Below, piece by piece: positions 52,468-58,459 of a stretch of 64,000 bases of DNA. The number at the start of each line of letters is the position of its first letter. The first letter of the stretch is position 1. The notes under the pieces are model-generated. The model searched no databases, had not been told where the DNA came from, and saw only the letters and a list, made by a program, of their open reading frames with translations. The DNA is taken from positions 682,001 to 746,000 of the forward strand of contig NZ_RKRA01000001.1 in the NCBI RefSeq assembly GCF_003814705.1, read 5' to 3'. This DNA comes from Georgenia muralis. Lineage in GTDB: Bacteria > Actinomycetota > Actinomycetes > Actinomycetales > Actinomycetaceae. The position numbers and the translations under genes are program-made.

Positions 52468-52570
52468 GGACTCTCCCCGGCGGTGGTTCGTCGATCCGTT
52501 GCCCACATTGTGCCCCTCCCCGTCCGGGGGACGTGGGGTTTCGCCTGGCGGTTCGGGTGCGGCCTCGCCG

Positions 52571-52796
52571 CCCGCAACCCAGCGACTCAGTCGCGAACGG
52601 TCGAGCGAGCACCTCCCGGGGTGACTCAGCGGCACCGTCCCCACGCGCTCGACCCGACACCCACGACTTCACCGCACCCCGAGCCCGCAACCCAGCGACT
52701 CTGTCGCGAACGGTCGAGCGAGCACCTCCCGGGGTGACTCAGCGGCACCGTCCCCACGCGCTCGACCCGACACCCACGACTTCACCGAACCCCGCG
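52571..52796. repeat. 113-bp tandem direct duplication
   Basis: Copy 1 (52571-52683) and copy 2 (52684-52796) are almost identical, differing by A/T at one hairpin loop base and a few bases at the end. Each contains the palindrome GCGACT-C-AGTCGC (copy 2 GCGAC-TCT-GTCGC). No coding sequence. It fills the intergenic space between the Usp and NlpC/P60 genes. Confidence 0.9.
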
Positions 52797-53892: not shown

Positions 53893-54399
53893 CGCCCGAA
53901 GACTTCGCGGAGGAGGGTTCCGGAAGCGATCTGGACACTACAGCCAGATTCTGGCTATGTCACGTTTCGATCACGACCCTGGGGATGTCACGTCGGCGCG
54001 GGTGCGGTGAGGTCCGCGGCGACCTCTCCGCCGAAGGCCGCGGCCAGCACCCACGGGGCGGTCACGTCAGAGGGTGTCGTCGCAGGTGAAAGGGCCACAG
54101 GGGGCCAGGGCCCACTCGCCGCCGACCACGCCCCGGGGTGGTCGGGAAGCGCTTCTCAGCATCGGGTTCGTGAGGCGGCTCACACCCGCCGACGCGCGTG
54201 GCGCCTCGGTGGATGCATGGCGCCCGGCTCCGGGGGACGCGCGTGGCGCCGCGGTGGATGCATGACGCCCGGCTCCGGGAGACGCGCGTGGCGCCGCGGT
54301 GGATGCGTGACGCCCGGCTCCGGGGGACGCGCGTGGCGCCGCGGTGGATGCATGGCGCCCGGCTCCGGGAGACGCCGCCACGTGCGCCCCGAGCGCTCG
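53893..54399. other. Gene-free stretch, mostly 45-bp repeats
   Basis: The first part holds the promoter of the riboswitch transcript, including an AT-richer stretch (ACACTACAGCCAGATTCTGG area at 53934-53960). The remainder up to 54374 is occupied by a tandem array. No gene is supported. Confidence 0.5.
54195..54374. repeat. 45-bp tandem repeat x4
   Basis: Four contiguous 45-bp units (54195, 54240, 54285, 54330) starting CGCGTGGCGCC and containing GGTGGATGCATGRCGCC then GGCTCCGGG. Differences are single bases. The length is a multiple of three, but every frame is interrupted or lacks a start, so it is not obviously coding. Confidence 0.92.
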
Positions 54400-55200
54400 T
54401 CAGGTGGTGACGAACAGGTGCCGGGTGATCTCCTCGGGCAGGTCCAGGACCGTCTCGGAGCCCGGCGCGTGCAGCGAGACGACGTCCCCGCCCGGCCGCA
54501 CCCGGACCTCGACGCGCACCCCGGGCCGCAGCCCCGACTGGTCCATGCGGGAGAGGAGGTCGACGTCGACCTGCAGGGGCTCACCGATGCGCGCCAGCAC
54601 GACGTCGGCACGGAGGTCGCCGACGTCCGCGCGGGCGGACTGCTCGTCCACGCGGCGGCTCTCCCCGTGTACGGGGGCCTGCGGGGCGAAGCGCTCGCCG
54701 TCGTCGCCGGCCGGGAGGAGCTCGGCGGCGACGTCGGCGAGGGACCGGACCTCCTCACGCGGCGCCACGACCTCCTCGTCCCCCGTCAGCGCGTCGAGGC
54801 CGGGGATCGGGTTGCCGTAGGGGTCGACGTGCGGGTGGTCGAGCAGCTCGAGGAGACGGCGCTCGACCCGCTCGCTCATGACGTGCTCCCACCGGCAGGC
54901 CTCGTCGTGGACGTACGCCCACTCCAGGCCGACGACGTCGGTGAGCAGCCGCTCGGCGAGCCGGTGCTTGCGCATGACCTCCGTCGCTCTGCGGCGACCG
55001 GCGTCCGTGAGCTCGATCTGCCTGGTCCCGGAGAGCAGGAGCAGCCCGTCTCGCTCCATACGGGCCACGGTCTGGGACACGGTCGGGCCGGAGTGGCCCA
55101 GTCGCTCCGCGATGCGCGCACGCAGCGGCACGACGCGCTCCTCCTCGAGCTCGTAGACGGTCTTGAGGTACATCTCCGTCGTGTCGATGAGATCGCTCAC
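54400..55200 (-). CDS. DtxR-family metal-dependent regulator
   Basis: A 266-residue protein with the DtxR/IdeR/MntR layout. The winged HTH is MYLKTVYELEEERVVPLRAR, IAERLGHSGPTVSQTVARME; the dimer/metal domain has Glu/His/Cys ligands in RHKLAERLL-type helices and VHDEACRWEHVMSERVERRL; the C-terminal FeoA/SH3-like domain ends EITRHLFVTT. It represses metal uptake when Fe(II) or Mn(II) is sufficient. GTG at 55200 follows GGGAG. A stretch of acidic/Ala linker separates the domains. The target is not adjacent. Confidence 0.88.
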   Translation of the reverse strand: MSDLIDTTEMYLKTVYELEEERVVPLRARIAERLGHSGPTVSQTVARMERDGLLLLSGTRQIELTDAGRRRATEVMRKHRLAERLLTDVVGLEWAYVHDEACRWEHVMSERVERRLLELLDHPHVDPYGNPIPGLDALTGDEEVVAPREEVRSLADVAAELLPAGDDGERFAPQAPVHGESRRVDEQSARADVGDLRADVVLARIGEPLQVDVDLLSRMDQSGLRPGVRVEVRVRPGGDVVSLHAPGSETVLDLPEEITRHLFVTT

Positions 55201-55352
55201 GTACTCCCGCTCTCTTCCGCGCGCGCCCCAGCGGCCGCGTCGCGACGGCTGGTCATGGGCATGCCTGTCCTCAGGATAGGGATGCCCGGCCACAACGGGC
55301 AGCGCCCCGGCCCGGTGGAGGGCAGTTTTCCGTTCTGTCCACTTCCGGCTCT

Positions 55353-56423
55353 ATGGTTCGCGTGATGCCGCTCACCCCTCCTCGCCTCCCGCTGCCCGAC
55401 CCGGGCACCGCGCCGCCCCTGTACGCGTACGCCGACGGCGAGCCGCTCTACCGCGGCCGGCGGATGCGCGACCTCGTGGGCACCCCGTTCGAGGAGATCT
55501 GGGGCCTGCTGGTCGACGGCGAGGGCGGCGACGCCCTCCCGCCGGCGGAGCCGTTCAACCTCCCCGTGCGCACCGGCGACACCCGGGTCGACGTGCTCTC
55601 CGCCCTGGCCCAGCTCACCCCCGTGTGGGGATACCGGCCACTGGTGGAGATCGACTCCACGCGCGCCCGGGAGGACCTCGCTCGGGCGTCGGTGATGACG
55701 CTGAGCTTCGTGGCCCAGTCGGCGCGGGGCGAGGACGTGCCGGCAGTGCCCCAGCGCGAGGTCGACATGGTCACGACCATCGCGGAGCGGTTCCTCGTGC
55801 GGTGGCGCGGCGTCGCCGACCCGGAGGCCGTCGCGGCGCTCGACCTGTTCTGGCTCGCCGTCTCCGAGACGGGTCTGGTCCCCTCCACCCGCACCGCGCG
55901 GACCGCCGCGGAGATGGGGGCCGACGCCGCCTCGTGCCTCGCCGCCGCTGTCGCCGTCGCGGGAGCACCCTTCGGCGGTGGCGCGGCCGCCCGGGCGCTG
56001 GCGATCGTGGCGGAGGCCGAGCGCACCGGCGACGCCGACGCCGCCATCGCGGCGCACCTCGCGCGGGGTGGCGACCTCGCCGGCTTCGGCGACGAGCTGG
56101 TCCCCGCCGACGCCCGTGTGGGGATGCTTCGCGACGCCTGCGTCCGGGCCGGCGCGCGCCGGCTCGAGTCCGCCGAGGCGGTCGCCCGCGCGGGCGCCGA
56201 GACCCTGGCCCGCGCGGGCGCCGAGACCCTGGCCCGCGCGGGCGCCGAGACCCTGGCCCGCACCTCCGGCCCGACCCCCGGGGCGAACACGCTCTTCTGG
56301 GGCGGCGTGCTGCTCGACCACGTCGGGGTCCCGCCCCAGCTCTTCTGCGCCCTGTACCTGTGCGGACGCACCGCCGGGTGGTCCGCGCACGTCCTGGAGG
56401 TCCAGCGCCTGCGGCACCTGTGA
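55353..56423 (+). CDS. Citrate-synthase-like protein lacking catalytic residues
   Basis: A 356-residue protein with the citrate-synthase fold pattern (ADGEPLYRGRRMRDLVGTPF near the start and VPPQLFCALYLCGRTAGWSAHVLE at the end). The catalytic positions do not fit: GPLHGGA is GAPFGGGA (F207), GFGH is GFGD (D247), and NVDF is NTLF (L314). An in-frame 24-bp array gives three ARAGAETL repeats (residues 278-301). Its place beside serC matches the citA-serC neighbourhood known in mycobacteria. Probably a non-enzymatic or altered paralogue. ATG at 55353 or 55365. Confidence 0.75.
   Translation: MVRVMPLTPPRLPLPDPGTAPPLYAYADGEPLYRGRRMRDLVGTPFEEIWGLLVDGEGGDALPPAEPFNLPVRTGDTRVDVLSALAQLTPVWGYRPLVEIDSTRAREDLARASVMTLSFVAQSARGEDVPAVPQREVDMVTTIAERFLVRWRGVADPEAVAALDLFWLAVSETGLVPSTRTARTAAEMGADAASCLAAAVAVAGAPFGGGAAARALAIVAEAERTGDADAAIAAHLARGGDLAGFGDELVPADARVGMLRDACVRAGARRLESAEAVARAGAETLARAGAETLARAGAETLARTSGPTPGANTLFWGGVLLDHVGVPPQLFCALYLCGRTAGWSAHVLEVQRLRHL

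Positions 56424-56442: not shown

Positions 56443-58459
<2,017 letters not shown>

Follow-up and report, generated by a model that had tools for sequence, protein, structure and literature searches.

What does a bacterium do with a citrate synthase homologue whose catalytic residues have all been replaced? The window, a stretch of 64,000 nucleotides from Georgenia muralis, contains such a gene, which could be a relic in decay, an enzyme with another activity, or a protein kept for something other than catalysis.

Loss of the catalytic triad in a citrate synthase homologue

The open reading frame at 55353-56423 matches the citrate synthase family PF00285 at 1.9e-35, with 123 bits where the cut-off is 27, and aligns with Mycobacterium tuberculosis CitA, so that its description as a citrate synthase homologue in a previous, sequence-only reading holds. 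Its best-scoring NCBIfam model is NF009005 (PRK12350; CitA or 'citrate synthase 2'), which it matches with 293 bits, below the cut-off of 332; two of the six proteins of its kind that we tested pass that cut-off. The locus has the following features.

54400..55200, minus strand: DtxR-family regulator, divergent neighbour (279 bits to the NCBI DtxR model, cut-off 290)
55352..55357, plus strand: putative -10 element TATGGT, just 5' of the probable leaderless start, proposed from the TATCCT of relatives
55365..56423, plus strand: coding sequence of the triad-less CitA (pseudo-CitA), 352 amino acids, from its likely true start
56184..56261, plus strand: 24-bp tandem repeat in 3.2 perfect copies, coding for ARAGAETL, within a part of the small domain that varies in length
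56443..57414, minus strand: GDSL-type lipase gene, between citA and serC and on the opposite strand
57347..58459, plus strand: serC, phosphoserine transaminase (TIGR01366, 556 bits, cut-off 402), downstream of citA on the same strand

The start at 55365 lies four codons downstream of the ATG at 55353, in the same frame. Eight of the nine nearest relatives (L005-L013) have an ATG at this place and the ninth a GTG, and seven of the nine have TATCCT a few bases 5' of the start, where the window has TATGGT. Leaderless actinobacterial genes typically have a -10-like box a few bases before the start codon. Given the conserved start codon and the upstream box, the window gene looks leaderless from the ATG at 55365, and we count residues from there (the earlier numbering is higher by four).

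We mapped functional positions by aligning the protein to M. tuberculosis CitA and to 21 further sequences. We take His274, His320 and Asp375 of the pig enzyme to be the catalytic triad, His238 to bind oxaloacetate, and Arg329, Arg401 and Arg421' to bind citrate. The corresponding residues and two further segments of the window protein, all on the plus strand, are these.

55536..55727, plus strand: residues 58-121 (LPPAEPFNLPVRTGD...FVAQSARG)
55788..55802, plus strand: R142 to R146 (RFLVR), aligned with R149 and R153 of M. tuberculosis CitA
55869..55871, plus strand: Thr169, at the oxaloacetate-binding His position (pig His238; alignment column 'H235')
55974..55976, plus strand: Gly204, at the catalytic His274 position
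56091..56093, plus strand: Asp243, at the catalytic His320 position
56115..56117, plus strand: Arg251, at the citrate-binding Arg329 position
56292..56294, plus strand: Leu310, at the catalytic Asp375 position
56367..56369, plus strand: Arg335, at the citrate-binding Arg401 position

Compared with an active citrate synthase, the window protein is missing the His/His/Asp(Glu) triad; the arginines at 329 and 401 are present, and the one at 421' is missing along with the C-terminal RPSARY tail that bears it. The sequence-only reading had put Phe207 at the His274 position, which is one residue early: the residue is Gly208 in its numbering (Gly204 here). It was right about the other two triad positions, which it numbered Asp247 and Leu314, and about a change in the HxLNxS region, where Thr169 has replaced the oxaloacetate-binding His and the Asn of the motif is gone too. 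The alignment against citrate synthases and CitA proteins that it recommended finds the triad replaced. A displaced catalytic His is not apparent because, of the four His in the window protein (231, 319, 342 and 351), just the one at 342 is conserved in the family.

That the fold is retained, as had been supposed, agrees with an AlphaFold2 model of the window protein (mean pLDDT 91.8, pTM 0.90), built on 64 family sequences that comprise the window's and unaltered locus proteins and include active CitA relatives. The predicted structure has the citrate synthase fold. VIA-align superimposes it on CitA 8gi7_D with Z 43.0 at 2.0 A over 320 residues (45% identity), and on Thermus citrate synthase with Z 35.1. 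Confidence is lowest at the N-terminus (51), at 241-250, the former His320 loop (71), and at 291-300, where the repeat ends (74).

The ARAGAETL repeat, which the earlier reading had singled out, is real but is not a shared feature: the sister genome (G006; 96% identical) has one copy of the unit where the window has three, and the other eight sequences compared at this site have different lengths or insertions. The repeat is, judging from these sequences, a local expansion, and we rejected it as a functional element on the same two observations. Repeats also occur elsewhere in the window. A tandem array of a 45-bp unit (4.1 copies, 94% matches) lies at 54191-54375, between an NlpC/P60 gene and dtxR, and at 52570-52794 two head-to-tail copies of a 113-bp unit, 98% alike, lie around the start of a universal stress protein reading frame and beyond, before the NlpC/P60 gene.

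A clade of CitA orthologues without the triad

We collected family members by searching relatives, the family, the order and the class, from fetched stretches, and by a scan of named genomes. The resulting 218 reading-frame hits represent 181 distinct sequences, in 148 of which the triad reads His, His, Asp/Glu; it is absent from the remaining 33, which we call pseudo sequences. His274 is lost in all 33, His320 is retained in three, and an acid at 375 in one. The substitutions across the clade are varied: G/A/S/L/C/E/Q at His274, D/Q/L/P/H/N/E/T and others at His320, and M/L/N/A/V/E/T/H at Asp375.

We computed a tree from 74 of the 181 rows (all 33 pseudo sequences and 41 of the 148 others) after removing the H235, H274, H320 and D375 columns. 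All 33 pseudo rows fall inside the CitA branch (68 rows, support 100/100), outside which stand L001 and L002, the two other citrate synthases of the window genome, and L025. A single clade holds 32 of the 33 (bootstrap 99, SH-aLRT 97) and spans four families of the order (f1, f7, f12 and f13); its nearest outside group is the active CitA of genus f17.g60 (support 91/69, not marked as a supported node). The remaining sequence, L183 (G273, f15.g78; L183:184-1293), has Q, L and E at the triad positions, retains the C-terminal Arg421 and stands apart from the clade in the tree, and therefore two changes are needed. One genus of f1 (g14, L024) has an intact triad and is placed elsewhere in the tree.

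Within the window's genus, the gene is present in all nine genomes searched, and all nine have lost the triad. More widely, most genomes have no copy: of 200 searched in the family 17 gave a match at 1e-30, and of 396 in the order 65 did, 52 of which were read for their residues. The class search gave a match in 248 of 296 genomes, of which we read 58, the best 30 and 28 low-scoring ones. The 29 reading frames from the 28 low-scoring genomes have His, His and Asp/Glu wherever these are covered; for this reason, triad loss looks confined, within the sequences read, to the order of the window's genome. The 80 loci listed in the scan of named genomes, mostly Streptomyces, include no member of the pseudo clade. 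That scan also supplied 79 of our 131 active CitA reference sequences, 64 of them from Streptomyces, so that the reference set is unevenly sampled.

Gene order agrees with the tree. The sequence-only reading had pointed to a serC neighbourhood, and this is confirmed by the TIGR01366 match at 57347..58459 and by serC near the relatives' loci: serC lies downstream on the same strand in 18 of the 24 pseudo loci that we read, and two of the six misses (L184 and L198) are cut by a contig end. A dtxR gene is near citA in 21 of the 24, although 4 to 6 kb away in two; the alignment of most relatives to the window's dtxR reading frame, as listed, begins at residue 32. Among active loci, 7 of the 10 read have serC near citA. 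By its place in a dtxR–citA–serC order, the window gene is the positional orthologue of CitA and no stray paralogue. An inverted repeat at 55258-55286, in the gap between dtxR and citA, was considered as a DtxR operator and rejected, as only the window and its sister carry it among the intergenic stretches compared by eye. The sister's copy differs by one base in the left arm, and the right half contains the -10-like box of the dtxR side, a box also found in further members of the genus.

Each of the 33 pseudo genomes yielded one match at a stringency of at least 1e-30, with the best 5 or 10 candidates per genome scored, so an active CitA beside the pseudo copy was not seen. In all 33, one or more other PF00285 genes are present, the best of them full length (2.7e-127 or better), and on this ground citrate synthesis is very likely covered by other genes. 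The window genome, the one genome in which their residues were compared, has a canonical citrate synthase (L001; 648 bits, cut-off 505) and a 2-methylcitrate/citrate synthase (L002; 633 bits, cut-off 479). These share PF00285 with the window protein, but unlike it keep H/H/D and the arginines at 329, 401 and 421.

Some genomes of the order have PF00285 genes in other arrangements. Nine carry divergent pairs 300-430 bp apart (G048:C18, G039:C7, G258:C1, G375:C13, G406:C1, G462:C11, G274:C33, G552:C1 and G385:C2); these occur in pseudo-CitA and active-CitA genomes alike and are perhaps two-gene citrate/methylcitrate synthase units. A single genus of the family has an active-type CitA, and there the gene is immediately preceded, on the same strand, by a second PF00285 gene (G021:C1:1246449-1248613; L024 and L204).

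Selection and the possible roles of the protein

No internal stops were found in the listed matches of the relatives, family and order searches. We estimated dN/dS by the Nei-Gojobori method for close pairs, a few sequences being used in two pairs; the 11 pseudo pairs range from 0.057 to 0.266 and the 10 active pairs from 0.040 to 0.157. Pooled values are 0.152 for pseudo-CitA (0.130-0.180; 9 pairs) and 0.095 for active CitA (0.078-0.119; 7 pairs). The pseudo pairs are under purifying selection, and the gene is maintained, as the sequence-only reading had proposed; clear pseudogene signs are absent from the relatives. The greatest difference is in the small (catalytic) domain, at 0.174 in pseudo-CitA versus 0.086 in active CitA, about twice; residues 303-345 give 0.130 versus 0.065, residues 58-121 give 0.101 versus 0.107, and residues 122-203 give 0.117 versus 0.108. 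Among 16 pseudo and 22 active representatives, chosen by hand, mean identity within residues 58-121 is 0.72 and 0.77, respectively, and within residues 204-260 it is 0.42 and 0.76. Constraint on pseudo-CitA, as read from these substitutions, is shifted and somewhat relaxed, not lost.

The catalytic motif is gone and the predicted fold and selection are kept, which is what characterizes a pseudoenzyme; the stops, frameshifts and dN/dS near 1 that characterize a pseudogene were not found. The explanation that we favor, by a modest measure, is that this is a maintained pseudoenzyme: an orthologue of CitA that lost its chemistry and is kept as a folded, non-catalytic protein, probably a ligand-binding regulator. 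Because relatives in several families have also lost the triad yet keep the gene, pseudo-CitA is probably a regulator or sensor and no enzyme.

The retained arginines suggest what such a regulator might bind. Pyruvate is said to be an allosteric regulator of CitA, and R149 and R153 reportedly form the charged part of the pyruvate pocket, perhaps an allosteric one, in the paper by the depositors of the CitA structures. By their titles, PDB entries 8gmk and 8glb are pyruvate-bound CitA, and 8gll and 8gmf are the variants R149E and R153M; the E at position 149 was observed as well. R149 is present in 33 of 33 pseudo sequences, 131 of 131 active CitA and 2 of 17 other citrate synthases, and R153 in 29 of 33 (the other four have Thr), 130 of 131 and 1 of 17. 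These arginines are not required in active-type CitA, since among the 29 reading frames from the 28 low-scoring class genomes R149 is Q in eight and R153 is Q or E in six; their retention in pseudo-CitA may for that reason reflect inertia or structure.

Triad loss, predicted fold, clade, purifying selection, synteny and the further full-length citrate synthase match in each of the 33 genomes are results of computation; for the dimer state, ligand, partner and output of pseudo-CitA, we infer the following. Condensation chemistry would have been lost once for 32 of the 33 sequences in the tree, and CitA would since have been kept as a folded, probably dimeric, non-catalytic protein. Since the R149/R153 pair remains, along with two of the three arginines taken to bind citrate, a 2-oxo acid or carboxylate, with pyruvate as the first candidate, may bind and change its shape. 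The conserved 58-121 stretch might then relay the state of the ligand to a partner, most likely one of the cell's true citrate synthases or SerC. Counting against this reading are the Thr at R153 in four pseudo sequences, the Arg421 position without a residue in 28 of the 33, the faster evolution of the catalytic domain and the lack of a copy in most genomes searched. The fullest form of this proposal, which we offer tentatively and consider rather doubtful, is that throughout the clade a dead citrate synthase has become a sensor: with the pyruvate pocket kept and the catalytic pocket discarded, it would signal pyruvate, or some other 2-oxo acid, either to the citric acid cycle or, via SerC, to the serine/PLP branch.

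The same conserved stretch, the modeled citrate synthase fold and the presence of a full-length citrate synthase match in every pseudo genome would also suit a non-catalytic subunit, one that forms a hetero-oligomer with a canonical citrate or methylcitrate synthase of the cell and tunes or stabilizes it, with no need of a ligand of its own. The window protein is, however, only 23-24% identical to L001 and L002, both are far off on the chromosome, and there is no evident reason why CitA-specific arginines should persist in such a subunit, which makes this explanation a possible but rather unlikely one.

Less probable still is that the fold hosts a new or residual enzyme activity, with the retained arginines serving, for example, a hydrolase or a lyase. 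The arginine at 329 is present in all 33 pseudo sequences and the position of 401 holds R in 31 and K in two, which, with the fold kept in the model, is what such an enzyme would call for. Yet the triad positions are occupied by many unrelated residues, with no new invariant polar residue among them; R324 is retained in one of the 33, and the Arg421 position has no residue in 28 and Arg in just two. The only positions that are invariant in the clade and have a different commonest residue in active CitA are Thr70, Cys191 and Leu316. The sequence-only reading had suggested a regulatory or new-function paralogue. A non-catalytic role is indeed likely; a single match per genome and the conserved gene order speak against a paralogue, and a new catalytic function is unsupported because the triad positions have no common substitution.

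Because the small domain evolves at twice the dN/dS of active CitA, the data also fit a relic in slow decay, retained temporarily, whether by chance or because it belongs to an operon. Two other observations point the same way: most genomes searched in the family and order lack the gene, and an adjacent pdxH has been lost in part of the clade. Of the 10 active genomes searched, 8 have pdxH no more than 1 kb from citA, as do all three genomes of the basal pseudo genus f7.g57; a link between the loss of pdxH and that of the triad was rejected on the latter observation, since the two were not one event. A whole-genome search for pdxH (TIGR00558) gave no match in the window genome (G000) and its sister, and matches below the cut-off in the other seven genomes of the genus searched. 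Against decay, one loss is common to 32 sequences from four families whose frames are open, dN/dS in close pairs is 0.06-0.27, and the intervals of all nine pseudo pairs lie below 0.4, so that we regard this as very unlikely. A sequencing or assembly artefact has nothing in its favor and a negligible probability, since the triad is likewise missing from separate genomes, both within the genus and in other families.

Known systems and meaning

Among solved structures, CitA of M. tuberculosis and of M. bovis are closest to the window protein (E about 1e-78, the best 7e-79). M. tuberculosis CitA (Rv0889c; PDB 6wgy, 8glb and 8gmk; NF009005) resembles the window protein in its N-terminal half and in R149/R153, and the gene order near serC is common to active loci; unlike it, the window protein has lost the triad, the H-x-x-N motif, the GFGHRVYR loop and the C-terminal RPSARY tail. 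Overexpression of M. tuberculosis citA has been found to raise the flux of acetate into the citric acid cycle (PMC3101192), which agrees with the triad-bearing CitA being an enzyme.

There is a precedent for a citrate synthase as a regulator in Caulobacter crescentus CitA, whose control of the cell cycle survives catalytic inactivation (PMC7083601). The Caulobacter protein is an active enzyme inactivated by design, whereas the window protein lost its residues by evolution, and the shared name CitA does not imply the same subfamily. Pseudoenzymes in general, the subject of the reviews PMC10211241 and PMC5106787, resemble the window protein in that the fold is kept, the catalytic motif lost and the gene maintained. 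We found no description of an inactive citrate synthase clade in the open-access literature, which is weak evidence as most subscription papers lie outside such a search.

Genes of this clade may be named 'citrate synthase' automatically despite the loss of the catalytic residues, as the passing of the NCBI family cut-off by some of them warns. A naturally inactive, long-conserved citrate synthase is a clean system for the non-catalytic roles of a textbook central-metabolic enzyme. In pseudo-CitA, the CitA pyruvate site could also be tested without catalysis confusing the result.
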